A stretch of 64,000 nt of DNA from assembly GCF_021531315.1 (NCBI RefSeq), contig NZ_JAFBIQ010000009.1, positions 1-64,000 on the forward strand, written 5' to 3'. This document shows, piece after piece, positions 3,774 through 58,173 of the stretch. Position 1 is the first letter of the stretch. Every line of letters begins with the position of its first letter. The stretch comes from Oscillibacter valericigenes (GTDB taxonomy: Bacteria > Bacillota > Clostridia > Oscillospirales > Oscillospiraceae). The translations under genes and the position numbers were made by a program. Under the pieces are notes generated by a model. That model did no database searches and was not told where the DNA came from. It was given only the letters and a program-made list of their open reading frames with translations.

Positions 3774-3797
3774 CGGAGCCGTCTTGGCTCCGTTTTT
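3774..3797 (+). terminator. Rho-independent terminator after the M56 gene
   Basis: CGGAGCC-GTCTT-GGCTCCG followed by TTTTT. Confidence 0.85.
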
Positions 3798-3830
3798 GCA
3801 CCGTTGCGCCGTCTCTTTCGTCGCATTTTA

Positions 3831-3859
3831 TTGCAAACGTACCCGCTCTATGGTATGAT
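3831..3859 (+). promoter_or_regulatory. Promoter of the DIP1984-like gene
   Basis: TTGCAA (3831-3836) and TATGAT (3854-3859) with a 17-bp spacer, 78 bp upstream of the start codon at 3938. Confidence 0.6.
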
Positions 3860-3937
3860 GCGTTTGAGAAGATTTGCGGCTCTCTCGACCGTCTGCCGGG
3901 CTGACAGTGGGCCGCAATGAAAGAAGGGGGAAACAAT

Positions 3938-4441
3938 ATGAAATACACCTCTGCCGAGGCAAACAAGCTGCTGAAAAAGCTGAACGATGAGTACGCCGCG
4001 CTGCTCGACAAGGAAACGCGCAGCCGCGACTTCCGCGCCGCGATGGGCGAGGATGTCGCGTCCGTGCGTCCCGCCTACGACTATGCCGAGACGCAGGCGC
4101 GTCTTGCGGAGCTGGAGGGGAAGATCCGCACCCTCAAGCACGCCATCAACCGCTTCAACACCACACAGGCGGTGGACGGCTTTGATATGACCATCGACGA
4201 GCTGCTGGTCTACATCCCGCAGCTCACAAAGCGCAAGGCCAAGCTCCTTGAGATGAAAAGCCGGCTGCCCAAGGAGCGCGTCGAGGAGCAGTACGGCCGG
4301 CAGTCGAACATCATTGACTACACCTACACGAACTACGACATCGCGGCTGTGGAGGCGGACTACGAGAAGACTGCCGACGAGCTTTCCCGCGCGCAGCTCG
4401 CGCTGGACGCGGTCAATGGGCGGGAGACCTTCGAGTTCTGA
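3938..4441 (+). CDS. DIP1984-like (DUF6847-type) coiled-coil protein
   Basis: A 167-aa soluble, strongly helical protein. The start at 3938 is chosen because AGAAGGGGG lies 8 nt upstream. The layout, with N-terminal helices, a LEGKIRTLKHAINRFNTT segment followed by DGFDMTIDELL and a second helical pair, resembles the DIP1984/DUF6847 family of small bacterial proteins of unknown role. No catalytic motif or signal peptide is visible. It sits alone between a terminator and a gene-poor stretch. The family call is from memory of the motif and is tentative. Confidence 0.6.
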   Translation: MKYTSAEANKLLKKLNDEYAALLDKETRSRDFRAAMGEDVASVRPAYDYAETQARLAELEGKIRTLKHAINRFNTTQAVDGFDMTIDELLVYIPQLTKRKAKLLEMKSRLPKERVEEQYGRQSNIIDYTYTNYDIAAVEADYEKTADELSRAQLALDAVNGRETFEF

Positions 4442-4924
4442 TAGTCATTTTTTCCGTCGCGCGGGGCGTTTTTGCCAAAAAGACTGACTGCTCTGTTTCC
4501 CGTTTGCGTTTAAAGTCATAGAGGGGAAACCGTTATTCTTTTTGTTATCTCTTATGCCTGCCTGTGTTTAATGATGGGGGTACCAACATTGATCCGGCAC
4601 GGCGCTCGGCGCGAAAAAACTTTTTGGAGACCGAAGTACGGTTATAGGCCTCCGCTTGAAATCGGCTTGCACCAAGTCGGTTTCGCGGCCCTCTGCTCCA
4701 ACCGAAAATAACCGAGTTTCCGACAAGTGAAAGGTCACATCACACAGCGTAATGTGACGATCAAAACATCGGTCTACCGCATCACCAACGGAGAGATCGA
4801 CGCCTTTGAGCGGGATTTTCAGGCGCTTTTCAATGCCTGCGAGCGCGGTGAGCACCTGAGCCCTGCAATAATGACTCGCCCCGCACGCCGACAAGGCGGC
4901 GCGGCCGCGGGCAGAAAATCATGG
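4442..4924. other. Gene-poor stretch with a possible coding remnant
   Basis: No convincing gene was found. A reading frame around 4736-4873 on the plus strand gives a plausible amphipathic peptide (YRITNGEIDAFERDFQALF) but has no ribosome binding site and runs into a compositionally different tail, so it looks like a remnant. GTCACAT at 4733-4739 pairs with ATGTGAC at 4751-4757, forming a small hairpin. Confidence 0.35.
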
Positions 4925-4953
4925 TTGAAAACGGTGGGCAAGCCGTGTATAAT
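4925..4953 (+). promoter_or_regulatory. Strong promoter of the 59-aa membrane protein
   Basis: TTGAAA (4925-4930), 17-bp spacer, perfect TATAAT (4948-4953). The ribosome binding site AAGGGGGG follows at about 4970. Confidence 0.75.
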
Positions 4954-4985
4954 GACGGTATCACATTACAAGGGGGGTAACCGCT

Positions 4986-5165
4986 ATGGGAAAGACCGCT
5001 CGTCTGGTATTGAAGCTCGTGGCCGCAGGTCTTGCGTTCTGCGCGCTCGTCTGCCTGATCGTAGGAAGCTGGTGCGATGTCGGCGAAGCCATCGATCGCC
5101 GCAAAAAGCAGCGCCTCGCCATGGATGAATACAGCGATTACGCGGATGAGGAGCTTCGCAGATAA
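4986..5165 (+). CDS. Small single-pass membrane protein (59 aa)
   Basis: ATG at 4986 follows a strong AAGGGGGGT ribosome binding site and a near-consensus promoter. One hydrophobic segment spans about residues 7-29 (LVLKLVAAGLAFCALVCLIV), preceded by lysine and arginine. The C-terminal 30 residues are highly charged and would face the cytoplasm or the outside. A palindromic terminator follows 35 nt after the stop, so it is a monocistronic unit. I do not recognise the family; its own promoter and terminator make it a real small gene. Confidence 0.7.
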   Translation: MGKTARLVLKLVAAGLAFCALVCLIVGSWCDVGEAIDRRKKQRLAMDEYSDYADEELRR

Positions 5166-5199
5166 AAGGAAATCTCAATAAACAGCATAACGAAGCAAA

Positions 5200-5233
5200 A
5201 GAGTCATCTTCTGCCGCGGCAGAAGATGACTCT
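5200..5233. terminator. 34-bp perfect palindrome, likely terminator
   Basis: AGAGTCATCTTCTGCC (5200-5215) is followed by GC and the exact inverse through 5233. The T-rich CGTTGTTCTT follows. It separates the small membrane gene from the ECF sigma gene. Confidence 0.65.
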
Positions 5234-5392
5234 CGTTGTTCTTCAAGAATATACGCTGCGCAAAAGCACCTTCGGATAACTCATTTCACCCGCCCCCAAA
5301 ATATGATATACTTTTGAAAATAATTGCGTTTTACCGTAGGATTTGCCGCGAAAACCGTAGTATATGGGTGAAGCCGGAAAGGAGGCGGTGTG

Positions 5393-5953
5393 ATGATAGA
5401 CGATGAAAAAATCATAGAACTATTTTTCGAGCGTTCCGAGCAGGCGATCCGAGAGCTGGATGCGAAATACGGAAAAGTTTGCCACAAGTTATCGTACAAC
5501 ATTCTGAGCAGCCGACAGGACGCGGAGGAATGTGTCAACGACGCTTATTTAGGCGTGTGGAACGCGATCCCCCCTGCAAAGCCCGACCCGCTGCTGACCT
5601 ACCTTTGTAAAATCGTCCGAAACATTTCCCTGAACGCCTATTACAGGAAGGACGCCGCCAAACGGAGCAGCCGCTGCACGGCAGCAATGGAAGAGATCGA
5701 AGATCGCATCGCGAGCCCCAACACGGTGGAAGCGGAGATCGAAGCCAAAGAGCTATCCCGCATCATTGAAGTTTTTCTGGACACGCTGAGCGCTGAAAAC
5801 CGCGTCATCTTCATGCGCCGCTACTGGTTTGCCGACAGCTATACGGACATCGCCGTATTCGTGGGACTGAGCGAGAAAAACGTCTCCGTCCGGCTGAGCC
5901 GTATCCGTAGAAAGCTGAGGCAATATCTGATCGAAAGAGAGGTGCTTATATGA
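5393..5953 (+). CDS. ECF-type RNA polymerase sigma factor
   Basis: A sigma-70 family protein of 186 aa (ATG 5393; GTG at 5390 is an equally good start, both behind GGAAAGGAGG). Region 2 is seen around DAEECVNDAYLGVWNAI and region 4 around the YTDIAVFVGLSEKNVSVRLSRIRRKLR helix-turn-helix. It directs RNA polymerase to a small regulon, typically including its own operon. The next gene overlaps its stop by 4 nt and looks like its membrane anti-sigma factor. Confidence 0.9.
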   Translation: MIDDEKIIELFFERSEQAIRELDAKYGKVCHKLSYNILSSRQDAEECVNDAYLGVWNAIPPAKPDPLLTYLCKIVRNISLNAYYRKDAAKRSSRCTAAMEEIEDRIASPNTVEAEIEAKELSRIIEVFLDTLSAENRVIFMRRYWFADSYTDIAVFVGLSEKNVSVRLSRIRRKLRQYLIEREVLI

Positions 5954-6501
5954 ACGCAAGGCAGTTTACCGAGGCCATGAGCGAGCTGGATGACAGGTAT
6001 GTCACGGAAGCTCTCTCCTACGAGTGCCCGCACACATCGAAGGCAAGCTCTAAAAAGCTCGTCATTCTGATCGCCGCAATCGTCGCCGTATTGGCACTTT
6101 GCGGTTTTACGGCGCATGAGCTTGGGCTGTTTGACCGTTGGTTTCAAAAGCCCTCTGCCGATCCGACGCAAACCGTCCAAAGCGCGATCGAGGGGCAAGC
6201 CGACAAGGTATATACGATCTGCGTGCGCATCGATGAGATCAAAGTGGACGAGGACGAAACCGCGCGCGTTGTCAAGATGTACGCCGGCAGCGAGCTCGCC
6301 GGATCAAGAGGCTGGACGGACGACTATCTATCAGAGCATTTTGTCGTGGTTTTGGCGAAATACTATGTGGAGTACGACCATACAAAAACATTTTTAGACG
6401 ACGGCTGCATGGAGCAATACTTCTATCTGACGCAGGATGCGAGAAGCGGAAAATGGACGATCGTTGACAACACCTCGCCAAGCACAAGGGTAAGTCCGTA
6501 A
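5950..6501 (+). CDS. Putative anti-sigma factor, single transmembrane segment
   Basis: A 183-aa protein with a short cytoplasmic N-terminus, a membrane segment at about residues 37-53 (LVILIAAIVAVLALCGF) and an extracytoplasmic domain of about 120 residues. Translation is coupled to the upstream sigma gene (ATGA overlap). Pairing with an ECF sigma suggests it holds the sigma factor at the membrane. The outer domain shows no family I can name. No zinc-binding HxxxCxxC motif is present, so it is not a ZAS-type anti-sigma factor. Confidence 0.7.
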   Translation: MNARQFTEAMSELDDRYVTEALSYECPHTSKASSKKLVILIAAIVAVLALCGFTAHELGLFDRWFQKPSADPTQTVQSAIEGQADKVYTICVRIDEIKVDEDETARVVKMYAGSELAGSRGWTDDYLSEHFVVVLAKYYVEYDHTKTFLDDGCMEQYFYLTQDARSGKWTIVDNTSPSTRVSP

Positions 6502-6503
6502 GG

Positions 6504-7094
6504 TCAACATTCAAAAGAGCGCAGCAATTCTTGCGCGAATGCTCCTGCACGCGCCGCCTTCTCCTCGCCCATAAATACGCTCCGATAGCCCGGGTCGTGC
6601 TCCGCCAGCATGCCCATGTAGCGGAGCTGCGAATGCTTGCAGTAGCGCCTGACGCCGCTCTCCCACAGGTCTGCACCCTTCTCGATCGGATAGCCGCAGG
6701 TCGTCAGCAGGGCGACCCGCTTACCCTCCCACAGCGCGCTCCCCTTCCGCTCGCCGTAGTACTTGTTCATACCGTAGACCAGCCGGTCCAGAGCAGCCTT
6801 CATGGGCGGCGTGCAATACCACGAGTAGATCGGCGTCGCCAGCACCAGCAAGTCGCTGCGCAGGACGCTCTCGGCGATCCCCTGCATATCGTCGTCGAGC
6901 GCGCAGCCGAAGGCGGCGTGGTCATTTTGGCAGCAGCAACAGGCGCAGCAGGGCTGAATCTCCTTTTCGTACAGCCAGATCAGCTCGCAGGCACAGCCGC
7001 CCTGCCGCAGTTCGTCCATGAACGGCTTTAGCAGGTGCATGGTGTTGCCGTCTTTCCGCGGACTGCCCATCAGAATACAAACTCTCTTTTCCAT
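6504..7094 (-). CDS. Flavodoxin-fold NAD(P)H-dependent FMN oxidoreductase
   Basis: A 196-aa protein of the NADPH-dependent FMN reductase/iron-sulfur flavoprotein group. The N-terminal GSPRKDGNT is the FMN phosphate loop, and TPIYSW at the flavin edge is typical. A cysteine-rich CCACCCC stretch sits at about residues 49-55, where related proteins use a CxxC cluster for iron-sulfur binding or disulfide chemistry. Substrate is unknown; related enzymes reduce quinones, azo or nitro compounds. A palindrome overlaps its promoter, suggesting control by a dedicated repressor not seen here. Confidence 0.85.
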   Translation of the reverse strand: MEKRVCILMGSPRKDGNTMHLLKPFMDELRQGGCACELIWLYEKEIQPCCACCCCQNDHAAFGCALDDDMQGIAESVLRSDLLVLATPIYSWYCTPPMKAALDRLVYGMNKYYGERKGSALWEGKRVALLTTCGYPIEKGADLWESGVRRYCKHSQLRYMGMLAEHDPGYRSVFMGEEKAARAGAFAQELLRSFEC

Positions 7095-7110
7095 GAAAGC
7101 AATTCACCTC

Positions 7111-7131
7111 TGTTAAATTATAATTTTAACA
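7111..7131 (-). promoter_or_regulatory. Palindromic operator overlapping a -10 box
   Basis: TGTTAAA...TTTAACA arms flank an AT-rich centre that contains TATAAT on the minus strand, 16 bp upstream of the flavin reductase start. A repressor bound here would block the promoter. Confidence 0.5.
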
Positions 7132-7290
7132 CAGAAATACATTGCCGTAAATACGCCTTTTGTAAATCCAAGTCGGGTGCATCATCCGAAAAGCTTATAT
7201 ATCACTTGAGCTAAAAGAGATTTCACGCTCGCCTGCACAGTCTATGTGTGCAGCCATCATAGAGCTTCGGCGTGCTCTTTCCGCGCGTCT

Positions 7291-8868
7291 TTATGCCTTG
7301 GCATCGCTGCTGTTATTGGGGATATTCTCGCCCTCCGGCTTTGCCCGCGGGGTACTGCCCTCCGGCTTTGGACCGTTGAAGCCGCCGGAAGGCGGCGCGC
7401 CGTCCGGCTTCTGCCCGCCGGGGCCGCCCATATTGCCCATGCCAGCGCTTACTGTGCCGGTCTGGGCGGCACTCTCCGTCTGGGTCTCACCAGAGGAAAG
7501 CGTATAGCTTCCTCCCTCCGAAAGGTCGCAAGATGAGAAGAATACAAAGGATGCGTCGCAGCCCGCCTCCCCCGTATAGAGGGCTGTTCCGTTGCTGTCC
7601 GCAACGGTAAAGGCGCTTCCCTGCGCCAGCAGCGACACGCCGCCGGGAAAGCCGCCCCGCGCAGGCCATGTTTCGCCGTTGGGCTGCTGGGATCCGTCAG
7701 GCTGTCCATTGCCGTTGGGCTGTTCTTCGCCGTTGGGCTGTTCGGGCGGGGTATGCCCGCCAAGCCTTCCCGCCGTATCCCCGCCGAAAATCACGCAGGG
7801 CTGGTTAGCTGCGAGATTCATCCCCATGCCGCTGCTGCCGCCCGCCGCCAGCACCGTGCCGCAGGAGACGGTCACCGTGCCGTCCGCGTCCAAGGGCTCG
7901 TTGTCGGCGGCGTTAGCGGTCCAGATGGTCACATGGCCGCCGGAGATTGTCAGATCGCCGTTGGAATCGAAGCCGTCGCCGCTGTCGGAGCGGGCCGTGA
8001 TGGTTCCGCCGGAGATGTTCAGTGCATAGGTAAAATCCGTCAGGTCGGCGTTGGCGGCGTTGATGCAGTCGTCCGTGGACTGGATGCTCACATTGCCGGA
8101 AAAGACATTGACGGCAGCGCCCTCTAATCCCTCGCTGCAAGAGGTGATGGTCACATTGGGGCCGTCCGTCCCCTCCGCGCCGATGTTCAGGGTGTAATCG
8201 CAGTGCAGCGCGTCATCCCCCGCCGAGAGGGTGAGGACGCCGCTCTCCACCTCCAGCGCCGCCTCCGCGTTCACCGCGTCGTTCACCGGCGCGTCGACGT
8301 TCAGCGTCAGCTCCCGGATGGTCAGGGACGCCTCGCCGTCCGCCGTTGTGGCCCCGGACTTGATGCCGTTCTTGCTGTTCGCCTGAAGGTTCAGCATCCC
8401 CGTGCCGCAGAGCACCACCTGGGAGCCATCCTTGCACTTGATAACGGCATTTTCCGCGTCAGCGCTGCCGGTCTCATCGTTGTTGCTTTCCATATCGGAT
8501 AGTGTGCTCTCCGTTCCACTTGCCGCCTCGATGGTAACGGCGCTGTCCTTGCCGCAGAGGATAGGGGCGGTAGTCTCCGAGGTGAGGGTCAGCCCGTTCA
8601 ACACCAGCGTCACGCCGTCCACGCCCTTTTCCACTTTTACGCTGCCGTCGGTGCAGCTGCCGGAAAGCACATAGGTGCCGGGAGCGGTGATGGTCAGGGC
8701 CGTCCCGTCGATGGTCACGCCATCTGTGGAGGCAGTTGTAACCTTACTGTCGCTGAATTGAATTTCCGTGCCGCTGACGGTTGCGGTATTCTCTTTTTGG
8801 TTAGCGGCGCAGCCCGAGAGCAGACTCAAGGCAAGCGCCAGCGCAAGAATGATTGCTGATTGTTTCAT
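7291..8868 (-). CDS. Cthe_2159-like (DUF4353) carbohydrate-binding lipoprotein
   Basis: A 525-aa lipoprotein: signal peptide with lipobox LLSGC (Cys20), then a repetitive body with NISGGTITARSDSGDGFDSNGDLTISGG-type turns that match the right-handed beta-helix of Cthe_2159/DUF4353 proteins. That family binds polysaccharide and calcium at the cell surface. After the helix come PNGE/QPNG repeats and a proline- and glycine-rich tail. It is the last gene of an operon with VTC and DUF4956 genes (4-nt overlap with the latter). CotH is often present in such clusters but is absent here. Substrate is inferred only. Confidence 0.85.
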   Translation of the reverse strand: MKQSAIILALALALSLLSGCAANQKENTATVSGTEIQFSDSKVTTASTDGVTIDGTALTITAPGTYVLSGSCTDGSVKVEKGVDGVTLVLNGLTLTSETTAPILCGKDSAVTIEAASGTESTLSDMESNNDETGSADAENAVIKCKDGSQVVLCGTGMLNLQANSKNGIKSGATTADGEASLTIRELTLNVDAPVNDAVNAEAALEVESGVLTLSAGDDALHCDYTLNIGAEGTDGPNVTITSCSEGLEGAAVNVFSGNVSIQSTDDCINAANADLTDFTYALNISGGTITARSDSGDGFDSNGDLTISGGHVTIWTANAADNEPLDADGTVTVSCGTVLAAGGSSGMGMNLAANQPCVIFGGDTAGRLGGHTPPEQPNGEEQPNGNGQPDGSQQPNGETWPARGGFPGGVSLLAQGSAFTVADSNGTALYTGEAGCDASFVFFSSCDLSEGGSYTLSSGETQTESAAQTGTVSAGMGNMGGPGGQKPDGAPPSGGFNGPKPEGSTPRAKPEGENIPNNSSDAKA

Positions 8869-9539
8869 AACATATCCCCCTGTCTGCCCTCTGCGGGAAT
8901 GCCGCAGGCGATCTCCAGATTTCCGTTGCGGCAGCGCATGGCGTCCAGCAATTCTTTTTCTTTGCCCGCGTCCTTCAGCGTGACCCGATAGTGGAGGCTG
9001 TACAGGCTACCCATGTTCACGGTTTTGACCCGCAGCAGCCGGGAAGCTGTGGTGTGCTCCGCGAAAAGGTCGGAAAACAGGTCGTTGTAGTCCAGATTTT
9101 CCGGGATCGTCACCCGGATGTCCCGCGCATCGGCGTCCGCCGCCTGTCTCCCTTGCAGCAGAAGAAGGATACAGGTCACCACCGCCGCCAGCACCGCTAA
9201 CGTGCAGTAGCCCATGCCGCAGCACAGCCCCACCGTCATGGCGAGGAAGATGGCCATGATGTCCCGGGCGGAACCGGGAGCCGAGCGGAACCGCACCAGA
9301 CTGAAGGCACCCGCCACCGCCACGCCTGCGCCGAGATTGCCGTTGACCAGCAGGATGACCAGCTGCACCAGAAAGGGCAGAACGGTCAGCGCCGAGATCA
9401 TGGTGCCGCCCTCCCCGCTGATTTTCCGATAGACCAGCGCGATGCCAAGGCCCAGTGCCACCGAGAGCAGGCAGACGGCGAGAAATACCGGCGCCGTCAC
9501 CGAGGTCGTATAAAGGGACGCGAAGATCCCGTCAAGCAT
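8865..9539 (-). CDS. DUF4956 integral membrane protein
   Basis: A 224-aa protein with four hydrophobic segments in the first 130 residues and a cytoplasmic C-terminal domain of about 90 residues. The motif GAFSLVRFRSAPGSARDI between the membrane segments is the signature of DUF4956. The gene overlaps the VTC gene upstream by 8 nt and the lipoprotein gene downstream by 4 nt, so all three are made together. The family's role is unknown; constant linkage to polyphosphate-polymerase-like proteins suggests a membrane partner for that enzyme. Confidence 0.85.
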   Translation of the reverse strand: MLDGIFASLYTTSVTAPVFLAVCLLSVALGLGIALVYRKISGEGGTMISALTVLPFLVQLVILLVNGNLGAGVAVAGAFSLVRFRSAPGSARDIMAIFLAMTVGLCCGMGYCTLAVLAAVVTCILLLLQGRQAADADARDIRVTIPENLDYNDLFSDLFAEHTTASRLLRVKTVNMGSLYSLHYRVTLKDAGKEKELLDAMRCRNGNLEIACGIPAEGRQGDML

Positions 9540-10257
9540 ATCGTTTCATCTCCATTTCGTTGATGTAATTTTTGCAGAGGGTTTCAAAGGCTCTGCCGCA
9601 TTTGGAAAACGAGATCGGGAAAATCCCGTTTTCCGAAAGGGCCTCCGCCAGCCACAGCGGGGCGGCGTTGGATATTTTTACCTCCATGAGCACCTGCCCC
9701 GGCTCCAGCAGCGGTTCGCCCCACGCCCCACGCCGCAGATCCAGCGCCTCGGTGCGCCAAAGGATCTCACGGTCCAGTGTCAGCCGCAGCGAAGAGTCCT
9801 CCCTCCCCCTCCACGAATCCCGCTCATAGCTGAGAAAAATCCGTGGCGCAAGGCTGCCGTAGGAGATGAGCATCCAGTTCAGCTCTTGAAAGATCTGCCC
9901 GTCCCCGCCGGGACGGCGGCGGGATAAGTAGTGGATCGCGTCGCCGTAGGGCATACGCACCCGGCGCTTATAGACGATCCCCTCCGCCTTCTTTTTGATC
10001 TCCGGAAACACCTGCGTCTCCTCGTCCGGCACGCCGTAGCCGCGCAGGCGGAGCTTTTCCTTATAGGCGGGCTTTTCCTGCGAGCGGCGGAGCATCCGAA
10101 AGTCCGGCGTGTCGTAATAGAGATTGGAAATGCTGCTGTGGGCAAAGGCGTCCGGTTCCATGTTGGTTTCCAGCGCCGGACGCAGGGCGGCAAGCTGCGC
10201 CTCCGTCAGCAGGTATTTTACTTCTTTCCGTTTGAATACGGCTTGATAGGTTTCCAT
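9532..10257 (-). CDS. VTC-domain polyphosphate polymerase-like protein
   Basis: A 241-aa triphosphate-tunnel (VTC) protein. Basic and acidic strand motifs are in the expected order: RKEVKYLL (about 11-18), YYDTPDF, KEKLRLRGYG, VFPEIKKK, VYKRRVRMP, LMEVKI and SFSKCGRAF. In yeast Vtc4 this fold makes polyphosphate from ATP inside a tunnel lined by such residues. As first gene of the operon it is transcribed from a promoter that mirrors the promoter of the divergent two-component system. Confidence 0.85.
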   Translation of the reverse strand: METYQAVFKRKEVKYLLTEAQLAALRPALETNMEPDAFAHSSISNLYYDTPDFRMLRRSQEKPAYKEKLRLRGYGVPDEETQVFPEIKKKAEGIVYKRRVRMPYGDAIHYLSRRRPGGDGQIFQELNWMLISYGSLAPRIFLSYERDSWRGREDSSLRLTLDREILWRTEALDLRRGAWGEPLLEPGQVLMEVKISNAAPLWLAEALSENGIFPISFSKCGRAFETLCKNYINEMEMKRYA

Positions 10258-13292: not shown

Positions 13293-14543
13293 TCAGTCGT
13301 CCATCTCCACCTCGCACCAGAGGATCGCGCCGGTGGCGGCGTTGATCTCATAGCTGTACTCCATACCGCCGGACTTGAACTCGACCTCGTAGATGAACAT
13401 ACCGTCCTCGTCGTCCAGCTCAATGTCCATGTCATACGCCTTGCTCTCACTCACGCCCGCGTGGTTTAGGGCGATGGACTTCGCCTTGGCATGACCGATG
13501 TCCGCGCTGCCGGACGGCTGGACAGGCTGGGAGGACTGGGCAGGCGGGCTGACGGGCTGAGAGGGCTTTACCGCGTCATTCCGAGCGGAAACGGTGGACG
13601 GCAGGTCCTTCTGTCCGCTGATCACCTTTCCCGTGTAAGCGTCCACCAGATACTCGAACTCGCCCCATGCCGTGTGCAGCTCCACCTCGTAGTAGGCGAG
13701 ATACTCGTCCAGCTCCGGGTCGACCTCCGCTGTGACGGAATCCAGTGCCGCCGTTCCGGCGTACTGCTCCGCGGCGTAAGCGGCGGCAGCCTTGCCGATG
13801 GGCATAGCGGGCGCGCCCGCCTCGGCGAGATCCTTGAGTTCCTCCACGGAGAGCGCCGCCAGCTCATCGAACTTGAGCGTGGAATTGATGGCGAGGACAC
13901 GGTTCACCAGCGCCGCCTTTCCGGTGGAAATGTTGTTTTCCCGCGCCTGCTGCTCCCGCCCCGCGTCCTGCGTCAGCGTCTGCGTCAGGACCGCCGCCTT
14001 TGCCGCGCTCGTCTGCAAAACGCCGTCCACGGCGCTCGTCAGCTCGCGCTGGAGCTTTTCCGCACGCGATGTATCCTTGTCCTCCACCGAGATCATGATG
14101 GCAGAGGAAATGCTGCTGAGATAGCCGTTGCGCACAAGACTTCCCACGATGGCGTTTACCGCCACATCGAGCTTCGCGCCCTTGAGGTCTGCGCCGTTGC
14201 CCATATCCGCAAGGATCGACTTGGCATCCTCATTGAGCGGGGTGCAGGAGAGCACCTTTTCGCTCCGATTTACCTTCAGTTCAATACTCGGGTTCACATC
14301 CAGCGACACCACGGACGCCACCGCGTTCGCCCGCTGGTAGAACACGCCTCCGCCGCCGAGCAGCGCCACCGCAAGGCAGGCGGCGATGAGCGATGTCCAT
14401 CTTCTCTTTGCTGCTTTTTTCGTTGTCATGTTGATTACCGTTCCTTTCCGCTCTTCACAGCGGGAGAGAACGCCGTGCGCATCGTCCGGCGCGGTCTTTT
14501 CAAGCGCCGCAGCCAAACGCTGCTCCATTTTTTCATTGGTCAT
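13293..14543 (-). CDS. RsgI-like anti-sigma factor with PepSY domains
   Basis: A 416-aa membrane protein. The cytoplasmic N-terminus (1-50) is followed by a membrane segment at about 51-68. Next is the VVSLDVNPSIELKVNRSEKVL motif typical of RsgI-type anti-sigma factors. The outer C-terminal part holds two PepSY-like repeats (about 255-310 and 350-416; the second ends EINAATGAILWCEVEM) joined by a proline/serine linker. It is transcribed after and overlaps the ECF sigma gene, so it most likely binds that sigma at the membrane and senses an extracellular cue. Confidence 0.85.
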   Translation of the reverse strand: MTNEKMEQRLAAALEKTAPDDAHGVLSRCEERKGTVINMTTKKAAKRRWTSLIAACLAVALLGGGGVFYQRANAVASVVSLDVNPSIELKVNRSEKVLSCTPLNEDAKSILADMGNGADLKGAKLDVAVNAIVGSLVRNGYLSSISSAIMISVEDKDTSRAEKLQRELTSAVDGVLQTSAAKAAVLTQTLTQDAGREQQARENNISTGKAALVNRVLAINSTLKFDELAALSVEELKDLAEAGAPAMPIGKAAAAYAAEQYAGTAALDSVTAEVDPELDEYLAYYEVELHTAWGEFEYLVDAYTGKVISGQKDLPSTVSARNDAVKPSQPVSPPAQSSQPVQPSGSADIGHAKAKSIALNHAGVSESKAYDMDIELDDEDGMFIYEVEFKSGGMEYSYEINAATGAILWCEVEMDD

Positions 14544-15115
14544 CGGGCGTCATCTCCTTCCAGAAAAATCCGCATCTTTTTCAATGCTCTGTGATATTTT
14601 GACAGGACGGTGGGAAGCGGCAGCTCCAGCAGCGCCGCGATCTCCCGATGCTTCATGCCCGTGACCGCGTGGAGCAGCACGATGCGCCGCTCTTCGTCAG
14701 CGAGGCTTGCCAATGCACCTTGCAGCAGTGCGCGCTCGTCGGCGTCCAGTCCGCACTCCTGCGCGGGAATGGCGTCCCATTCCTCCTCGCTGAGCGTGGC
14801 GTGGCTCTCCTCCCGCCGCAGGCGCATCAGGCACAGGTTTCGGCACACGGCCAGCAGCCAGCCCATGGGCGAGCCGGTGGACCGGTACTGCGCCGCGCAG
14901 TCCCACACCTGCACATAGACGTCCTGTGTGAGATCCTGCGCGTCCTGCGCGTTTTTGAGGTACGACAGCGCAAGGCCGTATACAGCCGATCTCGTGCACT
15001 GATACAGTTCCGCCAGCGCGTCGCGCTCACCGCCGGCAATGTGAACCAACAACTGCTGCAGCTCGTGTCGATCCTCTGCCGGCGCATATTCGGTTGTCAT
15101 CAGCATACTGAGCAT
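14540..15115 (-). CDS. ECF-type RNA polymerase sigma factor
   Basis: A 191-aa sigma factor. The start at 15115 (MLSMLMTT) is preferred because AGGAG lies 10 nt upstream; a longer reading begins at 15148 without a ribosome binding site. Region 2 is seen at DAQDLTQDVYVQVWDCAAQYRSTGSPMGWLLAVCRN and region 4 at MKHREIAALLELPLPTVLSKYHRALKKMR. It is coupled to the RsgI-like gene. Confidence 0.9.
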   Translation of the reverse strand: MLSMLMTTEYAPAEDRHELQQLLVHIAGGERDALAELYQCTRSAVYGLALSYLKNAQDAQDLTQDVYVQVWDCAAQYRSTGSPMGWLLAVCRNLCLMRLRREESHATLSEEEWDAIPAQECGLDADERALLQGALASLADEERRIVLLHAVTGMKHREIAALLELPLPTVLSKYHRALKKMRIFLEGDDAR

Positions 15116-15190
15116 GGGCTTTTTTCTCCTGTCATTTGTGTAATGCACGAAAAGGACGATTTATTGCATTTGAAATTAAATAATTTTTGA

Positions 15191-16966
15191 TTAAGATCCG
15201 CTGAGCACCTCGTAAACACGGATCAGTGCTGCGACCTCGCAGGCAAACCGATCTGCCAGTGCTTGCTCCTCCCACCATGTTCTCTGCGGCGTTGCGTGAT
15301 GCCCCGCGGCCTGCTCCACTTCCGCCTTGGCGGCACGGATGGCCTTCTGAGCGGAGAGCCACCGGCCGTAGGCCCCGCCGTGCAAGTCCTTTTTCAGTTT
15401 CCGCAGCGCAGCCTTGTACATCTTCTCCGCTCCGCTGGGGCCGTTGTAGTTGAGATAGATCGCCAGCTCCTGAAAGGTCATGCCAACCTCGTCCGGCTGA
15501 CCGATGCCAAGGTAGCTTCGCACCAGATTCAGCTCTCTGGGCGTCAGCACCTCCTCCATCCGCTGCATCAGCAGCGTCCAACGCATCAGGCGGTCACAGG
15601 CAACGGCGGGATCGCCGCCACAGCTGACGGAGAACACCTCGTCACCTAACTGCCGAGCGCAAAACAGCGTCCGGTATTCTTTTATCAATGCTCCAGCTAC
15701 CTTGGCAGATACATTCAGTTCTCCGCACACCACCTTGACCAACTCAGCATCAGATGCGTCACATCCCTCCACACCGAGGTATGCCACCCTGCGCAGTTGA
15801 TTGCACCGGCTGATGGGAATGGACAGAGAGGAAGAATACCGCGCGGCATAATCGGACAGCGCCGCTTCCATCACGGGCGTCGCATAGGTCAGCAGCTTCG
15901 TTCCGTAGGCGGGATCAAATCGCCTTGCCGCGTCCAGCAGCGCCTTGTCCCGGCAGCTCCCCGCCAGATAGAGCGCCTCCCGTCTTAGTTCGTCGGAGAT
16001 TTTGCCCCGCCAGTGATGCTTGCGGATTGTCCCGGTTCGGGTATTGAACAGGCGATAGACCGGGTGCTGTTTATTCTGCTCCTTCTGGTGCATCATCGCG
16101 CCGTACTGCCGGCAGGTGTAGCGGCTGTCCTGCGGGGCGATGCCGTCGCAGTATTTTGGGATGTGGCCGTTGGTGGTCAGAAAATATTTTCCACAGCCTT
16201 GGCACTGGCTGGGCGCGTGGCCGTGGTGCAATCCGTTCATCAGGTCGAACACATAAAAGTCGATGGCACCCTTGCAAATCACGCGCTGCGCGGTTTTCCA
16301 TTTTTCTTCATTGTTCTCATCCTGAAAATAATTGAATCCTGTGATAACTCTTGGATAGGAGAAGAATTCTTCCACCCCGCCAAACGGCATTTGCTCCAGC
16401 AGGATCAGAAAGCTGTCATCCTCATCAAAGCACTCATGCGCCGCCTTTGCGAAGGCGTCTGCATTGCGCTGCTTTGATCTGTGCAGATATTTCATCTCGA
16501 ATGTGCGGATGAGCAGGCAAAAATTATAGATCGCCACCAGGATTCTCAGGATCGGCTCGCAAAAGGAAAGCGTCAAGTACGGAAGATGCTCCTCCTTTTC
16601 CTCATAGTCCCGATCGAGCCGTTCCTCGCTCAAAGCATGTTCAAGATCCTCATACGTACCTTGGCTTTCGCAATAGCAAAACGGCGGGCAAGTATACAGC
16701 CAGGAAACCGTGTCATGCAGCAGCGGTTTCAGTTGTGCCGCAATATCATGGCGCTTGCTCTTTTCGACTGTGCTCAAATCGTCCACAAGCGCCGTCAGCA
16801 CAGTGATACGCTCCAGCAGAGGATCGTGGATCACACCGGCAAAGTTCAAGATCTCCGCCGCAAACTGTCCTGCCGGAAACTCCTTTCCCTCGTAGTACAC
16901 ACGGTCATTCCAGCAGTCCATTGTCATGGTGTCAAATGTGTTATACTGATCCGTCCCGATCTTCAA
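15191..16966 (-). CDS. DUF6076-like zinc protein fused to sigma-70-like regions 2-4
   Basis: A 591-aa protein with two parts. The N-terminal 340 residues resemble DUF6076 proteins and carry a likely zinc site: C255/C258 (CQGC) with C273 and C285, then a basic YRLFNTRTGTIRKHHWRGK stretch. Residues about 343-527 align in order with a sigma-70 factor: region 2 (LLDAARRFDPAYGTKLLTYA, 343-362, then IPISRCNQLRR), a region 3-like helix-turn-helix (SDAELVKVVCGELNVSAKV, 405-423), and region 4 (LTPRELNLVRSYLGIG then MTFQELAIYLNYNGPSGAEKMYKAALRKL). Region 1.2/2.1 is not visible. The gene is divergent from a truncated AAA ATPase and probably belongs to a decayed mobile element. It may be a noncanonical sigma factor or a DNA-binding derivative. 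Confidence 0.7.
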   Translation of the reverse strand: MKIGTDQYNTFDTMTMDCWNDRVYYEGKEFPAGQFAAEILNFAGVIHDPLLERITVLTALVDDLSTVEKSKRHDIAAQLKPLLHDTVSWLYTCPPFCYCESQGTYEDLEHALSEERLDRDYEEKEEHLPYLTLSFCEPILRILVAIYNFCLLIRTFEMKYLHRSKQRNADAFAKAAHECFDEDDSFLILLEQMPFGGVEEFFSYPRVITGFNYFQDENNEEKWKTAQRVICKGAIDFYVFDLMNGLHHGHAPSQCQGCGKYFLTTNGHIPKYCDGIAPQDSRYTCRQYGAMMHQKEQNKQHPVYRLFNTRTGTIRKHHWRGKISDELRREALYLAGSCRDKALLDAARRFDPAYGTKLLTYATPVMEAALSDYAARYSSSLSIPISRCNQLRRVAYLGVEGCDASDAELVKVVCGELNVSAKVAGALIKEYRTLFCARQLGDEVFSVSCGGDPAVACDRLMRWTLLMQRMEEVLTPRELNLVRSYLGIGQPDEVGMTFQELAIYLNYNGPSGAEKMYKAALRKLKKDLHGGAYGRWLSAQKAIRAAKAEVEQAAGHHATPQRTWWEEQALADRFACEVAALIRVYEVLSGS

Positions 16967-17049
16967 AAGCCCGCCCCCTGTCCTATATCCGTTTTACAGC
17001 TGTCCTGCGATATTCTCATTCTATCAAAAAATACAGAATAATCAAGTGA

Positions 17050-17089
17050 AAGGGTTAGAGCCTCGACTGCAGCGAGGTCTCTGCCCTTA
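17050..17089 (+). promoter_or_regulatory. Long hairpin upstream of the ATPase fragment
   Basis: AAGGG...TAGAGCCTCG pairs with CGAGGTCTCT..CCCTT around a short loop, followed by TTATTCTTTT. It looks like a terminator or attenuator in the 5' region of the ATPase fragment. Confidence 0.5.
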
Positions 17090-17112: not shown

Positions 17113-17529
17113 ATGTCTCAAATCAAACGACTGCAAACCATTGACGCGGACACGCTGCAAAGCACCGCTTACGAACCGGTCTCCTTCGTGGTCGACGATT
17201 TGCTCCCCCAGGGACTGCACCTGCTGGCGGGCGCGCCGAAGATCGGCAAATCGTGGCTGGCGCTGTGGCTGGCCGTCACGGTGGCGAAGGGCGATCCCGT
17301 CTGGGGCATGGGTGTGAAGCAGGGCGCCACGCTCTATCTCTGCCTGGAGGACTCCACCCTCCGCATCCAGAACCGTCTGTTCGAAATCACAGAGGACGCC
17401 CCCGCCAGCGTCCACTTCACCACCAACAGTGACACTCTTGGAAAGGGTCTGGAGGAACAGCTCTGCGCGTTCCTCGCTGAGCACCCCGACACGGTGCTGG
17501 TCATCATCGACACGCTGCAAATGGCTTGA
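17113..17529 (+). pseudogene. AAA_25/RepA-type ATPase, truncated after Walker B
   Basis: The 138 codons encode the N-terminal part of a RepA-like AAA ATPase: Walker A GAPKIGKSW at about residues 37-45, a CLEDSTLRIQNRLF motif, and Walker B VLVIIDTLQ at the very end. Intact relatives continue for 150 or more residues. The frame stops at 17529 immediately after the Walker B aspartate, exactly where unrelated lower-GC sequence begins, so the gene was cut by a recombination or insertion event. Its ribosome binding site is weak. Confidence 0.8.
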
Positions 17530-17915
17530 TTTGACATATAGCCTTGGACATAATACGAGACCATTCTTGTAGACGCTCGCTGAGTTGTGTCTGCATATCC
17601 ATTGGAAAAATAGCATCCATAACAGTTTGGTACTGTTGAAGAGCAGATGTTATTCCAGAAGTATCCATCTTGGAGATGATCTCTTGAGTGCGATATATAG
17701 CGGCCATAGACTGGCTATCAAAAAACTCTGATCACTTTGTTAAGGTCACGGATTGCAGGCAAATCAAACACGGCGATGATTGTTTTTGTCAATGTTGCAT
17801 AATTTGCCTGCATTTCCATTTGGGGACGTGTCAGCAGATTCATCTGTCGTTGAAGTTGATTCAATTTTTCAAACCAGGGAGGAAGTTCATAAAACGCCGC
17901 CATCGTCTTTGTCAT
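17530..17915 (-). pseudogene. Frameshifted hypothetical gene
   Basis: Two adjacent minus-strand frames belong to one protein: residues from 17915 (MTKTMAAFYELPPWFEKLNQL...) end at a TGA just after AGAGTTTTTTGA. Reading one base on from the T6 run at about 17718-17723 continues as DSQSMAAIYRTQEIISKMD toward 17530. A single base slip in the T run would restore about 130 residues. The sequence is helical, glutamine-rich, and of no family I know. Its 3' end runs into the broken ATPase, so it is probably decayed. Confidence 0.6.
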
Positions 17916-18126
17916 ATTTTCAAGTGCTCCTCAGAGTTCGTTTTGCATAATTATACCCCATATATGGCGTTTTTTCAAGGACTTGTGTTGCTATATTGTG
18001 TTGTGATGCACTGAGTATAGAAAGATTGGGGCAGATGGAATTGTCTCTCTATGTTCACTTTCGGTAAAAACAAGATTATAGCATGAAAGAATTAACCGGA
18101 GGTGCAGCTTAAAGTACACCTCCGGT

Positions 18127-18211
18127 TGGTACGGGTAGTGGGACTTGAACCCACACGCCTTGCGGCACAGGAACCTAAATCCTGCGTGTCAACCAATTCC
18201 ACCATACCCGC
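18127..18211 (-). tRNA. tRNA-Leu (anticodon TAG)
   Basis: An 85-nt class II tRNA. The acceptor arms GCGGGTA and TACCCGT pair with a G-U at the first position, the anticodon loop TTTAGGT is closed by CAGGA/TCCTG, the variable arm is long, the T arm reads GTGGGTTCAAGTCCCAC, and CCA is encoded. Confidence 0.93.
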
Positions 18212-18263
18212 ATATTAAGTTTTAAGAGCTTGTACTGGCGATAAACCCTACACTGAGGTGACA

Positions 18264-18304
18264 TCACCTAAATCTCGCATGTCTACCAATTCCATCACAG
18301 GCGC
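18264..18304 (-). pseudogene. 5' half of a second tRNA-Leu (TAG)
   Basis: The minus-strand sequence from 18304 reproduces a leucine tRNA 5' acceptor strand, D arm (ATGGAATTGGTAGACAT) and anticodon loop (ATTTAGGT), closely resembling the intact tRNA 50 nt away. No matching 3' anticodon strand, T arm or 3' acceptor strand follows. It is a tRNA remnant, not a functional gene. Confidence 0.65.
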
Positions 18305-55043: not shown

Positions 55044-56744
55044 TTATGCTACAAAGCGGAAGTCTTGCGGGTTTGCCCGTATTTCCTCCATCATAGCAAG
55101 TATTTCCTGTTCGGTTGGAATATCTATCATACCAACCGCAGTAAAGTAAATATCTACCTTTACATAACAATGACCGCTTGATTTGTCGTTGTTATGGACT
55201 TCGATACGCTCAATCAGAGAATTTACAAGTGTCGGCGTGAGTTCGTTAATTTCGGTCATTTCACGCAGAGTACGGAGTAAAAGCCTTAAATCCGTTGCTT
55301 TCTGCTTGGCTTCCTCTAAGGTCTGCCTGCTGTCGGCAACCTCCTGCGTTAATGCTTTCTGCTCTTTCTCATAGCTTTGAAGCATTTTAGAAAAGCGTTC
55401 ATCGGAAAGTACGCCGATGGCATTCTGCTCGAAAACCTTTTCAATCAGCCTGTCGATTTCGACAATTCTCTTTGTGCCTTGTTCCACCGCCTGCTCAAGT
55501 CTTTTATGTTCTTTCTGTCGCATAGCATTGGTTTTCTTTGCAAGTATATACAGAAATACGGATTCGTGACATTTCACAAAATCCGCTAAGCTGCTGATTG
55601 CTTCAAACACAATTTTTTCAAGCACCACATCTCGGATAAAGTGAACAGTACAACTGCCACGCCCCGACTTATAGTTGGAACAGCGGAAGTGTTCTTGATT
55701 TCGAGTTAAACTTTTAGCGGCGGCGAAGTGCATTTTTGCACCGCAATCTGCACAGTATACCAATCCCGAAAACAAGCTTGTTCTTCCCGTTGCTGTCGGT
55801 CTTCGGCGGTGTTTGCGAAGTTCCTGCACCCTTAGCCATTGTTCTTCGGATATTATCGGCTCCTGCATATTCGGTATGATTTGGTAATCTTCTGTGGCAT
55901 TATGGATTTTCTTATGAACCTTGTAGCTGACCGTAGTGCTTTTGAAGTTCACGGCACAACCCGTATACTGTCGATTTTCAAGAATACCTACAACCGTTGC
56001 CTGATCCCAACTACACGGATTAGTTGGTACTTTCTGTGAGTGGCTTCTGCCGACAAATTCATAGTAGGCAGAGGGAACAAGGATTTTCTCTTTCTCCAAC
56101 TGTCTTGCAATTTGTGACGGTCCTCGCCCTGCAAGACATAAAGCATAGATTTGGCGTACCACTTCGGCAGCGGGTTCATCAATCAGCCATTTCTCTTTAT
56201 CACCGGGGTCTTTCACATATCCAAAAGGAACAGTCGGTGAGACACGCTTTCCGTTTTCCGCTTTCGATTGCCATACCGCACGGATTTTCTTAGAGGTTTG
56301 TGCCGCATACCACTCGTTGAATATGTTGTAAAACGGCAGCATTTCCATACCCTCGCCGGTGGTGCTGTTTACATTCTCGTGGAGCGAGATAAAGGTAACA
56401 CCCAAAGAGGGATATACAATCTGAGTAAGTCTGCCTGCTTCAACCATTTCTCGACCGAAACGGGAGAGGTCTTTTACAATAACCCTGCATATTTTGCCTT
56501 CCTCCACCATTTTCTGCATCTGCTGAAAACCGCCTCGCTCAAAACTTGTGCCGGAAATACCGTCATCTACAAAGAACATCGTGTTTGTAAAGCCCTGCTT
56601 TTGGCAGTAATCTAACAGTATTTGCTTTTGATTGGTTATGGAATTTGACTCGGCGTCTTTCTTGTCATCATCAACAGATAATCTACAGTACAACGCTGTG
56701 ATTTTTTCTTCTGTCTGCCCGTTAATATTGTTTGCTGTTGTCAT
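55044..56744 (-). CDS. Large serine recombinase
   Basis: A 566-aa recombinase. The N-terminal resolvase domain begins ALYCRLSVDDD with nucleophile S23 and contains DLSRFGREMVEAG; the recombinase domain follows (VPFGYVKDP), then a zinc ribbon (YCADCGAKM with RCSNYKSGRGSC) and a long coiled coil (about 420-500). It resembles TnpX-type recombinases of clostridial mobilizable transposons and Tn1549-like elements, which excise and insert elements with a dinucleotide core. Lower GC than the flanking chromosome. Confidence 0.95.
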   Translation of the reverse strand: MTTANNINGQTEEKITALYCRLSVDDDKKDAESNSITNQKQILLDYCQKQGFTNTMFFVDDGISGTSFERGGFQQMQKMVEEGKICRVIVKDLSRFGREMVEAGRLTQIVYPSLGVTFISLHENVNSTTGEGMEMLPFYNIFNEWYAAQTSKKIRAVWQSKAENGKRVSPTVPFGYVKDPGDKEKWLIDEPAAEVVRQIYALCLAGRGPSQIARQLEKEKILVPSAYYEFVGRSHSQKVPTNPCSWDQATVVGILENRQYTGCAVNFKSTTVSYKVHKKIHNATEDYQIIPNMQEPIISEEQWLRVQELRKHRRRPTATGRTSLFSGLVYCADCGAKMHFAAAKSLTRNQEHFRCSNYKSGRGSCTVHFIRDVVLEKIVFEAISSLADFVKCHESVFLYILAKKTNAMRQKEHKRLEQAVEQGTKRIVEIDRLIEKVFEQNAIGVLSDERFSKMLQSYEKEQKALTQEVADSRQTLEEAKQKATDLRLLLRTLREMTEINELTPTLVNSLIERIEVHNNDKSSGHCYVKVDIYFTAVGMIDIPTEQEILAMMEEIRANPQDFRFVA

Positions 56745-56830
56745 AAATCATTTCTCCTTTCCGACAACAGGGCATAGCAAAGGCACAATTATTGTAGTAT
56801 GCCCCGTTATCTTTTTCTATGGTGCGATTG

Positions 56831-57109
56831 TTAAATTAAATGTTCGGACAGTATCAATTCTTTGAATTGTTCCAATAAACACTGTCTACCCTTTGGATTA
56901 AAATGTGTAGATACTTCGTATGTTGTCCCACCGATTTTCACTGTGAAATTATCTTCACCGAAACGGCGTACCTTGGTATAATCAAATATACGCTCATTAC
57001 TTCTCGGTATCAGGTAATCAACAACGCAGATTTCTTGGGTTTCATCTATCTGTTCCGGCGGAGTCACATAAACTGCTTCATTGTTCGGAAACATATCTAT
57101 TTTCTTCAT
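56831..57109 (-). CDS. TnpW-like transposon protein (possibly 5'-truncated)
   Basis: A protein of up to 92 aa with the C-terminal NFTVKIGGTTYEVSTHFNPKGRQCLLEQFKELILSE motif of TnpW-like proteins accompanying serine recombinases. The first usable ATG is at 57109, with another at 57094; neither has a ribosome binding site, because foreign sequence begins at 57110. The natural 5' region may therefore be missing. Role in transposition unknown. Confidence 0.6.
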   Translation of the reverse strand: MKKIDMFPNNEAVYVTPPEQIDETQEICVVDYLIPRSNERIFDYTKVRRFGEDNFTVKIGGTTYEVSTHFNPKGRQCLLEQFKELILSEHLI

Positions 57110-57586
57110 AAGAACGGCCAGCGGCAGTATGAATGGGGACATTACGGCAACGATCTGGCCGCTATGGAACAGGATTTTTCAGACCGGGTAAAGGACTATC
57201 AGCGGCTTTACTATGCGGGGATCGTGCAGACCGAGGCCCCCGGCCTTTACAAATATTACTCTACCCAGCGGCCTGTGGACATCGGGACATTCCCCAAACC
57301 GCCCCACAATGCCCCGGATGAGATCGTCAACTATGACCGCCGCATCCCGGTGGAGGGCGGCGCATTTCTGGCATGGGGTCATCTGACTTATACAAGACCG
57401 CTGACCGAAAAGGAGGCGTCTGACTATGAGCTCCGTCCTGCCCCCGTCATTTCTGAATTATCCCGAAAAAACGATGACAGGCCCCTCTCGATTGCCCAGC
57501 AGATGAAAGAGGCCGGAGCTCTGGCCGAAGCCAGCCAGGGCGATCCCATCCATAAGAAAAAGGCCCCCGACCGGGGCGACCGATAG
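57110..57586 (+). pseudogene. YodL/DUF4316-region conjugation protein, 5'-truncated
   Basis: From 57110 the plus frame reads KNGQRQYEWGHYGNDLAAMEQDFSDRVKDYQRLYYAGI then DIGTFPKPPHNAPDEIVNYDRRIPVEGGAFLAWGHLTYTRPLT, the C-terminal end of a protein found in Tn1549-type elements. No start codon or ribosome binding site precedes it; the reading frame upstream is the antisense of the TnpW-like gene. The N-terminal part was lost at the junction. The stop is followed by a good ribosome binding site for the next gene. Confidence 0.7.
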
Positions 57587-57596
57587 GAGGATTTGT

Positions 57597-57767
57597 ATGG
57601 AAGAAAGATATAACCCGATGAAAAGTGCGGAGATCGCCACCGAGCACAATTACAATATGCTGGACGGTGTTCTCAATAACCAGGCCCCACCCCCGGAGGA
57701 AAAGGAGCTGGATAAGGTTAAGGAACCGCCCCACAAGCGCCGGAGCCGGGAACGGGAGGAACGATGA
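57597..57767 (+). CDS. DUF4316-like small protein (56 aa)
   Basis: ATG 57597 follows TAGGAGG. The sequence NPMKSAEIATEHNYNMLDGVLNNQAPP matches the tail of DUF4316-like proteins of Tn1549-type elements; the end is basic (HKRRSREREER). It overlaps mobC by 4 nt. Function unknown. Confidence 0.7.
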   Translation: MEERYNPMKSAEIATEHNYNMLDGVLNNQAPPPEEKELDKVKEPPHKRRSREREER

Positions 57768-58111
57768 CAAAGAAACGCCGCCGCCCGATCCATCTCCATG
57801 TGATGGTGTCCGAGGAGGAGCAGGCCCTTATTCAACAACGCATGGCCGAGTCGGGCATCCGCAATATGGGGGCCTATATGCGGAAAATGGCCCTCAATGG
57901 CTATGTGCTCCATGTTGACCTCTCGCCCGTCCGGGAGTTGGTATCGCTCCAGCGGCGGTGCTCAAACAACCTCAATCAAGTGGCGATCCAGACCAACACC
58001 TACGGCGGGATTTACCCCGAGGAGATCGCCGCTTTGCAACGGGACTATGCCGCCCTGTGGGGGCCGCTGTCCGATCTGCTGAAAAAGCTCTCCGCATTGG
58101 TGGAGCTCTGA
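57764..58111 (+). CDS. MobC-like relaxosome protein
   Basis: A 115-aa protein with a ribbon-helix-helix-like start (RRPIHLHVMVSEEEQALIQQRMAESGIRNMGAYMRKMALNGY) and the C-terminal SLQRRCSNNLNQVAIQTNTYGGIYPEEI typical of MobC. MobC binds at oriT and opens it for the relaxase. It overlaps the upstream gene and is followed by a terminator-like hairpin. Confidence 0.9.
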   Translation: MTKKRRRPIHLHVMVSEEEQALIQQRMAESGIRNMGAYMRKMALNGYVLHVDLSPVRELVSLQRRCSNNLNQVAIQTNTYGGIYPEEIAALQRDYAALWGPLSDLLKKLSALVEL

Positions 58112-58116
58112 TCCTG

Positions 58117-58150
58117 CCGGGGAGTGGCGTATGCCGCTCCCCGGTTTTCA
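58117..58150 (+). terminator. Hairpin terminator after mobC
   Basis: CCGGGGAGTGGC/GCCGCTCCCCGG with a GTAT loop and one G-T pair, followed by TTTTC. Confidence 0.8.
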
Positions 58151-58156
58151 CTACTT

Positions 58157-58173
58157 CGGGACAATTTGTCCCG
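58157..58173. repeat. Palindrome GGGACAATTTGTCCC, copy 1
   Basis: CGGGACAATTTGTCCCG, between mobC and the CD1845-like gene. Copies 2 and 3 are at 58569-58583 and 60091-60105. Confidence 0.85.

Follow-up and report, generated by a model that had tools for sequence, protein, structure and literature searches.

The open reading frame of Oscillibacter valericigenes in which a DUF6076 protein runs directly into a sigma-70-like protein is most likely, judging from its relatives, what a small deletion left behind when it joined two adjacent genes. The DNA around it, within the 64,000 nucleotides analysed here (the window), very probably remains from a mobilizable element that underwent this deletion. 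In relatives the two genes are separate and usually overlap by a few base pairs, and the second encodes a sigma factor that still carries the front part missing from the window.

Results

The original prediction had placed a fusion of a DUF6076-like zinc protein with sigma-70-like regions at 15191-16966, giving no strand. The frame exists, lies on the minus strand and has no internal stop over its 591 codons (Table 1). It starts with TTG, as does its counterpart in Flavonifractor sp. AGMB03687 (L031), ATG being the start codon in most of the 25 aligned sequences. The N-terminal half had been correctly assigned to DUF6076 (PF19553), which matches residues 213-346 with 162.3 bits (Pfam cut-off 23.5) over profile positions 12-145 of 168, the last positions being absent because they were lost by the deletion described below. 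The cysteine site (CxxC...YC...CR) lies within residues 255-289, and the four Cys, the Tyr and the Arg that are invariant in DUF6076 are all present.

The sigma-like peptides quoted in the prediction were found at residues 343-362, 383-393, 474-489 and 517-524. Taken alone, the fused frame has a modest likeness to sigma factors and is a weak case for Pfam: Sigma70_r2 matches residues 343-376 at E 0.011 with 16 bits, under the curated cut-off of 24, the best of the NCBIfam sigma models also gives E 0.011, and the best phmmer match in the PDB, aligned to SigA, has E 0.47. PHROG 351 ('RNA polymerase sigma factor') matches significantly, at E 9.8e-8, over residues 342-408. The frame lacks regions 1.2 and 2.1 and the beginning of 2.2, and the profile of the A1 subfamily of intact proteins matches it only from model position 66. 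The sigma descent of this C-terminal part is settled by its intact homologues, which match sigma models.

Table 1 Features of the fused gene, its surroundings and a second mobile element in the window.
Feature	Position	Strand	Basis or remark
Fused ORF, 591 codons	15191..16966	-	DUF6076 protein and C-terminal three quarters of a sigma-70-like protein, in frame
DUF6076 part of fused ORF	15945..16966	-	Pfam E 1.1e-47
Cys4 site (CxxC..YC..CR) of DUF6076 part	within 16100-16204	-	Cys positions
Deletion scar, single copy of 13-bp repeat	15932..15944	-	L031 has two copies
Sigma part, second half of region 2.2 to region 4, and C-terminal tail	15194..15931	-	A1 profile, PHROG 351
Conserved non-coding block upstream of DUF6076, GACAG repeats	16974..17053	-	Alignments
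Promoter-like site toward DUF6076	17045-17018	-	TTGATT-16-TAGAAT, TG ahead of second hexamer
Hairpin in front of AAA_25	17050..17088	+	Fold z -2.28
AAA_25 ATPase gene, cut short	17113..17529	+	138 aa (355 aa in L031); homologous as far as 17523
Serine recombinase	55044-56744	-	By eye
Relaxase-like ORF	58626-60050	+	tblastn 4.7e-15 at 58752-59339
Two-component regulator pair	60811-62878	+	By eye

Judged by its sequence, the intact second gene is a genuine relative of sigma-70. Sigma70_r2 matched 20/20 intact proteins at E<=1 (best 5.8e-12), the first member scoring 29.3 bits against the cut-off of 24, while the Pfam model of region 4 matched 5/20 at E<=1 (best 0.0071). HTH_16 (PF12645), which we take to be a domain of conjugative-transposon proteins, matched 10/20 (best 9.5e-6). 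The alignment profile of the intact proteins matched SigA of Staphylococcus aureus at 8.9e-19 over profile positions 14-225, and PHROG 351 matched the intact gene at 9.4e-20. The assignment to sigma-70 made by eye in the original prediction was right. Specifically, the intact gene is homologous to primary-type sigma-70 proteins (SigA/RpoD, RpoH, RpoS) across regions 2 to 4. It differs from them in being encoded on a mobilizable element beside DUF6076, in its long C-terminal tail and in region 2.3, where the Trp-Trp of SigA (TYATWWI) is replaced (TYATPAI); the window copy differs further in being without regions 1.2/2.1. Residues D58, L59 and Q61 are invariant in all 20 intact proteins and E62 is conserved in 19 of them; they align with DLIQEG of SigA, and all are lost in the window. 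The equivalent Asp, Gln and Glu of Escherichia coli sigma-70 touch the beta-prime coiled coil as part of the core-binding face (region 2.1 to 2.2).

Searched against 197 genomes of the order, the sigma profile also matched apparent housekeeping sigma genes, at 6e-21 and weaker, and some match at E<=1e-10 was present in 189 of the genomes. At E<=4e-79 eight places were found, all directly at a DUF6076 gene by coordinates, one of them being the window. Structure models were made from intact relatives: when the two L062 proteins were modelled as one linked chain by reading through the stop, Foldseek retrieved sigma-RNA polymerase entries (1.6e-6), the target-normalised TM-scores being low (0.19-0.36) because the domain arrangement is not placed with confidence in the model. 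Profile comparison links a divergent subfamily of seven members, A2, to A1 (98.5% probability, E 2e-15). Two of its seven members matched Sigma70_r2 at E<=1 (best 0.00077), and its best match in a PDB profile search, FliA at 0.09, was not significant. Where A2 genes lie downstream of DUF6076 (L018-L020, L057 and others), the region-4-like part of their products contains a conserved stretch, NAICMTCGRVS, which is possibly a second metal site.

In the genome set compared, with one genome per species, the two halves were separate genes at 35/35 distinct related junctions and none was open across; loci holding one half were left out of this count, and L001 and L059 (the window itself) were set aside. 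Overlaps of 4 bp (ATGA or GTGA) were found at 24 of the 35 junctions and genes in the same frame with a stop codon between them at two, and in L010 the first gene is frameshifted. By tblastn, residues 1 to about 345 and 342-589 of the window protein align to relatives separately, with as a rule some 250-290 bp of extra DNA between the halves, mostly in another reading frame. In the relatives the first gene reaches its own stop after another 25-30 residues or so, and the second starts at or near that stop, about 65 residues preceding the segment found in the window. No second fused copy was met among the relatives examined. The proposal of an evolved architecture, with a zinc module in place of the front of a sigma factor, was therefore rejected, since the two genes are fused at none of the 35 distinct junctions and the separate second gene has the missing front.

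Two weak tests looked for the junction elsewhere: in 17 other genomes of the genus the longest match across it was a single one of 22 bp, and its 25-mers had no match in viral contigs, where the sigma relatives were not found either. A viral origin was also considered and rejected, as the 70 pattern stretches that the sigma alignment picked out in viral contigs included no relative. A phage collection contained two matching records (41% cover at 88% and 21% at 39%), 'Bacteriophage sp.' entries from human faeces that carry no annotation, and a plasmid collection contained one match, to the DUF6076 part only.

Among the matches listed, a sigma-like gene lay downstream of 17/26 core DUF6076 genes and of 2/22 weaker matches, core genes being those with E<1e-33 against our own HMM in family-only searches and at least 900 bp of downstream sequence, the window excluded. 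The corresponding figure for all loci (55/68) is biased upward, as it includes loci obtained by searching with the fused protein, and the window is counted in it on account of the unrelated ECF sigma gene next door.

Comparison with L031, which is 89-90% identical to the window at the DNA level in the aligned pieces, locates the missing DNA. L031 carries GGCGCTGATGGAC at 6023 and GGCGCTGCTGGAC at 6322, repeats identical at 12 of 13 positions and 299 bp apart (298 bp in L033), whereas the window retains one copy (15944-15932) and lacks 299 bp, bracketed exactly by the repeats. The loss took with it sigma region 1.2/2.1, the start of region 2.2 and the invariant D-L-x-Q; the absence of region 1.2/2.1 had been noticed correctly in the original prediction, and its cause is the deletion. 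With the two genes in different frames, a loss not divisible by three is able to join them in frame, as occurs here. Most simply, slippage or recombination between the 13-bp repeats would have removed the DNA and made the end of DUF6076 continue in frame into sigma region 2.2, with region 1.2/2.1 and the D-L-K-Q-E stretch cut out. L033 retains both genes at the same ECF-sigma/anti-sigma flank (window 15944-13279 aligns at 86% over 2,667 columns), which means that the two-gene state occurs at this very site, and the window's own genome carries an intact pair on contig C32 (L063). Gene order, overlap, sigma family membership and the deletion can all be read from the aligned DNA and proteins.

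The flank shared with L033 contains (13296-15148, minus strand) one gene for an ECF sigma factor (Sigma70_r2 1.7e-15) and another whose product has RsgI-type anti-sigma and PepSY domains. This system adjoins the remnant and is unrelated to the fused gene.

In L031 and L033 the intact pairs are surrounded by genes for a MobA/VirD2-type relaxase, a NikA/MobC-like protein and an AAA_25 ATPase; one protein of each was scanned, the L031 relaxase matching PF03432 at 2.6e-32 and the L033 protein being NikA-like at 2.8e-18. In these Oscillospiraceae mobilizable elements the AAA_25-MobC-relaxase genes are divergent from the DUF6076-sigma operon, and beyond the sigma gene of L031 and L033 lie DUF6550 and DUF6809, followed by variable genes. 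An ORF of 515-534 aa after the relaxase in L038 and L039 was named a serine recombinase by eye. Defence cargo comprises an LlaJI-type restriction-modification set (L040), Abi_2/AbiD (L036) and Druantia DruE and DruD (L115); in the last locus the Druantia-type genes lie at 3786-10075 on the minus strand beside an intact pair (DruE1 E 0, DruD1 4.9e-11). The link to mobile elements raised in the original prediction is supported in that the relatives sit in such elements, with an AAA_25 ATPase gene adjoining the intact pairs.

The window has no relaxase beside its module, the sole relaxase match (58752-59339) being about 41 kb away, and a search of the window with MobC of L033 gave no match. With its ATPase cut short and no MobC match, the window element is predicted to be unable to move by itself. 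Beside the cut AAA_25 gene, the region 17530-18300 contains, on the minus strand, a small ORF that has decayed and is broken by stops, a tRNA-Leu gene (18127-18211) and, by eye, a tRNA-like fragment near 18265-18300, and is possibly an old integration site. A second mobile element occupies 55044-63882.

Codon changes unique to the window's sigma part comprised 8 silent and 11 replacing ones, against 34 and 14 in L031, L033 and L064 together; the difference (Fisher two-sided p 0.048) is marginal and comes from four sequences that may recombine, and we regard it as a weak but consistent sign of relaxed selection in the window copy. Pairwise dN/dS of the sigma part was 0.27 between the window and L031, 0.27-0.29 between the window and L031, L033 and L064, and 0.18-0.26 among those three. 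As the fused frame is fully open and dN/dS with L031 is 0.27, decay is not obvious.

The control block between AAA_25 and DUF6076 is more alike than the flanking genes, both in 25 aligned sequences and pairwise. The motif GA(T/C)AT(A/G)GGACAG is found a single time in 41 of the 113 loci, some of which are the same place, and in the divergent subfamily CATGACARG repeats are found at the same position. The hairpin in front of AAA_25 has fold z-scores of -2.47 to -4.43 in four relatives. By eye, from T-runs in the relatives, it looks like a terminator or attenuator toward AAA_25; a terminator scan of the window did not list it.

All 37 aligned DUF6076 relatives are invariant at C253, C256, Y270, C271, C283 and R284 (L063 numbering). 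The model of the protein is confident (pLDDT 94, pTM 0.79) and consists of a helical domain and a Cys4 zinc-finger-like domain; Foldseek gave no match to it at E<=0.001, and the best Z in VIA was 8.2, the rows being mostly helix bundles and mostly covering residues 43-157. We therefore assign the protein to no known fold and do not call its fold a new one.

A 28-bp motif of fixed spacing, TRGCTWT-N11-TGTGNTAWKG, that is T(A/G)GCT(A/T)T-N11-TGTGnTA(A/T)(T/G)G, was observed at L031:7973 (-), L038:7953 and 1617 (-), L063:8460 (-) and in L155-L194. In these elements it lies about 50 bp before DUF6809 genes, though the upstream DNA does not align, and it likewise stands about 50 bp ahead of serine recombinases of more than one kind and of tyrosine integrases. 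The strict motif had 53 sites in 38 of 300 family genomes, against 1 for a reversed control; with up to 2 mismatches the excess was smaller (84 sites against 37 in the control, six genomes). Among 40 sites read, 18 are followed by DUF6809 genes (tblastn), 8 by serine recombinases (5 by tblastn, 3 by eye), 4 by tyrosine integrases (by eye) and the remaining 10 by another gene or by none that is clear, and 9 of 12 loci read from the 2-mismatch list precede integrases or DUF6809-like genes (by eye). The motif resembles a promoter recognised by an alternative sigma factor that unrelated mobile elements employ.

This motif was first taken as the promoter of the DUF6076-linked sigma, but it is not generally found near such a sigma. 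Nine of the 53 strict sites lie in elements with an intact DUF6076-sigma pair. The other 44 were examined together with flanking DNA of at most some 10 kb per side, often cut short by a contig end, and since 39 of them had no sigma match nearby a link between motif and sigma is unproven. The rest comprise L228, with a clear mobile sigma gene, L234, with a 167-aa sigma-like frame, and L208, L226 and L237, with weak matches; in L217, one of the 39, the contig ends at DUF6076, so that any sigma gene behind it would have been lost. At the genome level and among the matches listed, P0001 was matched by 25/38 motif genomes and 63/262 others (one-sided p 6e-7), and 9/38 motif genomes and 8/262 others were sigma-positive (p 4e-5), a test that leans towards a link because the motif was defined on such elements.

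Discussion

We predict that the fused product is most likely inert as a sigma factor. The frame is open over its whole length, regions 2.3 to 4 remain and the pairwise dN/dS of the sigma part is 0.27, all of which would fit a working protein in which DUF6076 tethers a shortened sigma and which acts on RNA polymerase, by recruiting or redirecting it, or else is a competitor of the intact sigma of C32; the paralogue in the same genome would give such a dominant-negative form a target. This is nevertheless very improbable, given that the fusion recurs in none of the 35 distinct relatives, that the invariant D-L-x-Q of region 2.2 is gone, that the surrounding element is truncated and that the window copy has extra replacing changes. 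We also find it hardly credible that the fusion is an assembly or binning error in which 299 bp were dropped at a short repeat. The genome is a 122-contig draft and the gap sits exactly at the repeat, but an imperfect repeat of 13 bp is shorter than customary assembly k-mers, and the flanks are continuous in a contig of at least 64 kb. A deletion between neighbouring genes of a decaying mobilizable element is therefore the reading that we prefer.

In the intact element, a housekeeping-type promoter is placed to transcribe the DUF6076 gene and then a complete sigma-70-type gene, usually overlapping its stop, with the AAA_25-MobC-relaxase genes running the opposite way. The sigma protein would direct RNA polymerase to promoters of the element, and DUF6076 would control either the sigma protein or its promoter, so that regulator and sigma factor together may set the expression of the element.

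How DUF6076 would do so can be read in two ways. It may well be a DNA-binding regulator of the GACAG repeats between the divergent operons, acting beside the sigma rather than on it, though we would not go so far as to call this probable. The GACAG block stays alike while the DUF6076 proteins are mostly 42-50% identical to that of the window, a different repeat (CATGACARG) takes the same place in the divergent subfamily and the Cys4 site is invariant in 37/37 proteins; however, the AAA_25 protein or the sigma could also be the binder of the repeats. That DUF6076 is instead an anti-sigma factor holding the sigma protein of the parent module is a more doubtful proposition. Sigma/anti-sigma pairs are frequently co-transcribed, and the DUF6076 and sigma genes are adjacent and usually overlapping. 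Against this, 9/26 core DUF6076 loci have no sigma-like gene downstream (among the matches listed), the Cys4 pattern resembles by eye that of DNA-binding treble-clef fingers (with no fold match at E<=0.001), and the linked DUF6076-sigma model has no confident arrangement (pTM 0.48), for which reason no interface between the two proteins is claimed.

The DUF6076 Cys pattern and two-domain layout recall the ABATE-CGNR proteins (DUF1470), described as having an N-terminal domain with an unknown ligand and a C-terminal treble-clef finger proposed to bind DNA, and as co-occurring with regulators that include sigma factors in Streptomyces (PMC2954205). This is, in terms of that description, an analogy and not a membership, as we found no sequence or fold match and the last two DUF6076 cysteines (C271 and C283) are 12 residues apart. 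The Tn6164 island of Clostridioides difficile has, in its published gene list, a protein of unknown function whose C-terminus is a CGNR zinc finger (Orf6) beside an ECF sigma gene (Orf7) and an LlaJI endonuclease gene (Orf5) (PMC3485107), and LlaJI genes are also cargo beside the DUF6076-sigma pair in L040. Orf7 is of the ECF type, runs in the opposite direction and is assigned to another region of the island; the resemblance, compared by description, is a lead only.

Sigma-type genes on mobile elements also include the PHROG 351 phage family, a sigma-70 gene given for the Streptococcus pyogenes tet(O) fragment (PMC5704250) and Orf91 of a 100-kb island of C. difficile, named 'sigma-70, region 4' (PMC3485107). 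The descriptions of the latter two genes in these papers name neither DUF6076 nor the DUF6076-sigma gene order. With integrative and mobilizable elements as outlined in the former paper (PMC5704250), our relatives share a relaxase, a NikA/MobC-like protein, a serine recombinase (by eye) and defence cargo, most of which the window remnant has lost. In the literature searched, preprints being outside its scope, we found no paper on DUF6076, no report of a sigma factor on mobilizable elements in Flavonifractor or Oscillospir- taxa and none from a search on integrase promoters.

It is rather unlikely, to our mind, that the DUF6076-linked sigmas are dedicated mobile-element sigma factors which direct RNA polymerase to the 28-bp motif and run a shared excision and mobilization regulon, with DUF6076 as a zinc-dependent switch. 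If this were true, unrelated elements in Oscillospiraceae would have a regulon for excision and mobilization in common.

An eye-catching domain fusion thus turns out, most likely, to be a deletion scar, which cautions against taking such apparent architectures in draft genomes at face value. Of more use is the parent module, which ties the uncharacterised DUF6076 to a full sigma factor, as an overlapping gene pair on mobilizable elements with defence genes, and which may offer a testable route to how such elements govern their own expression.
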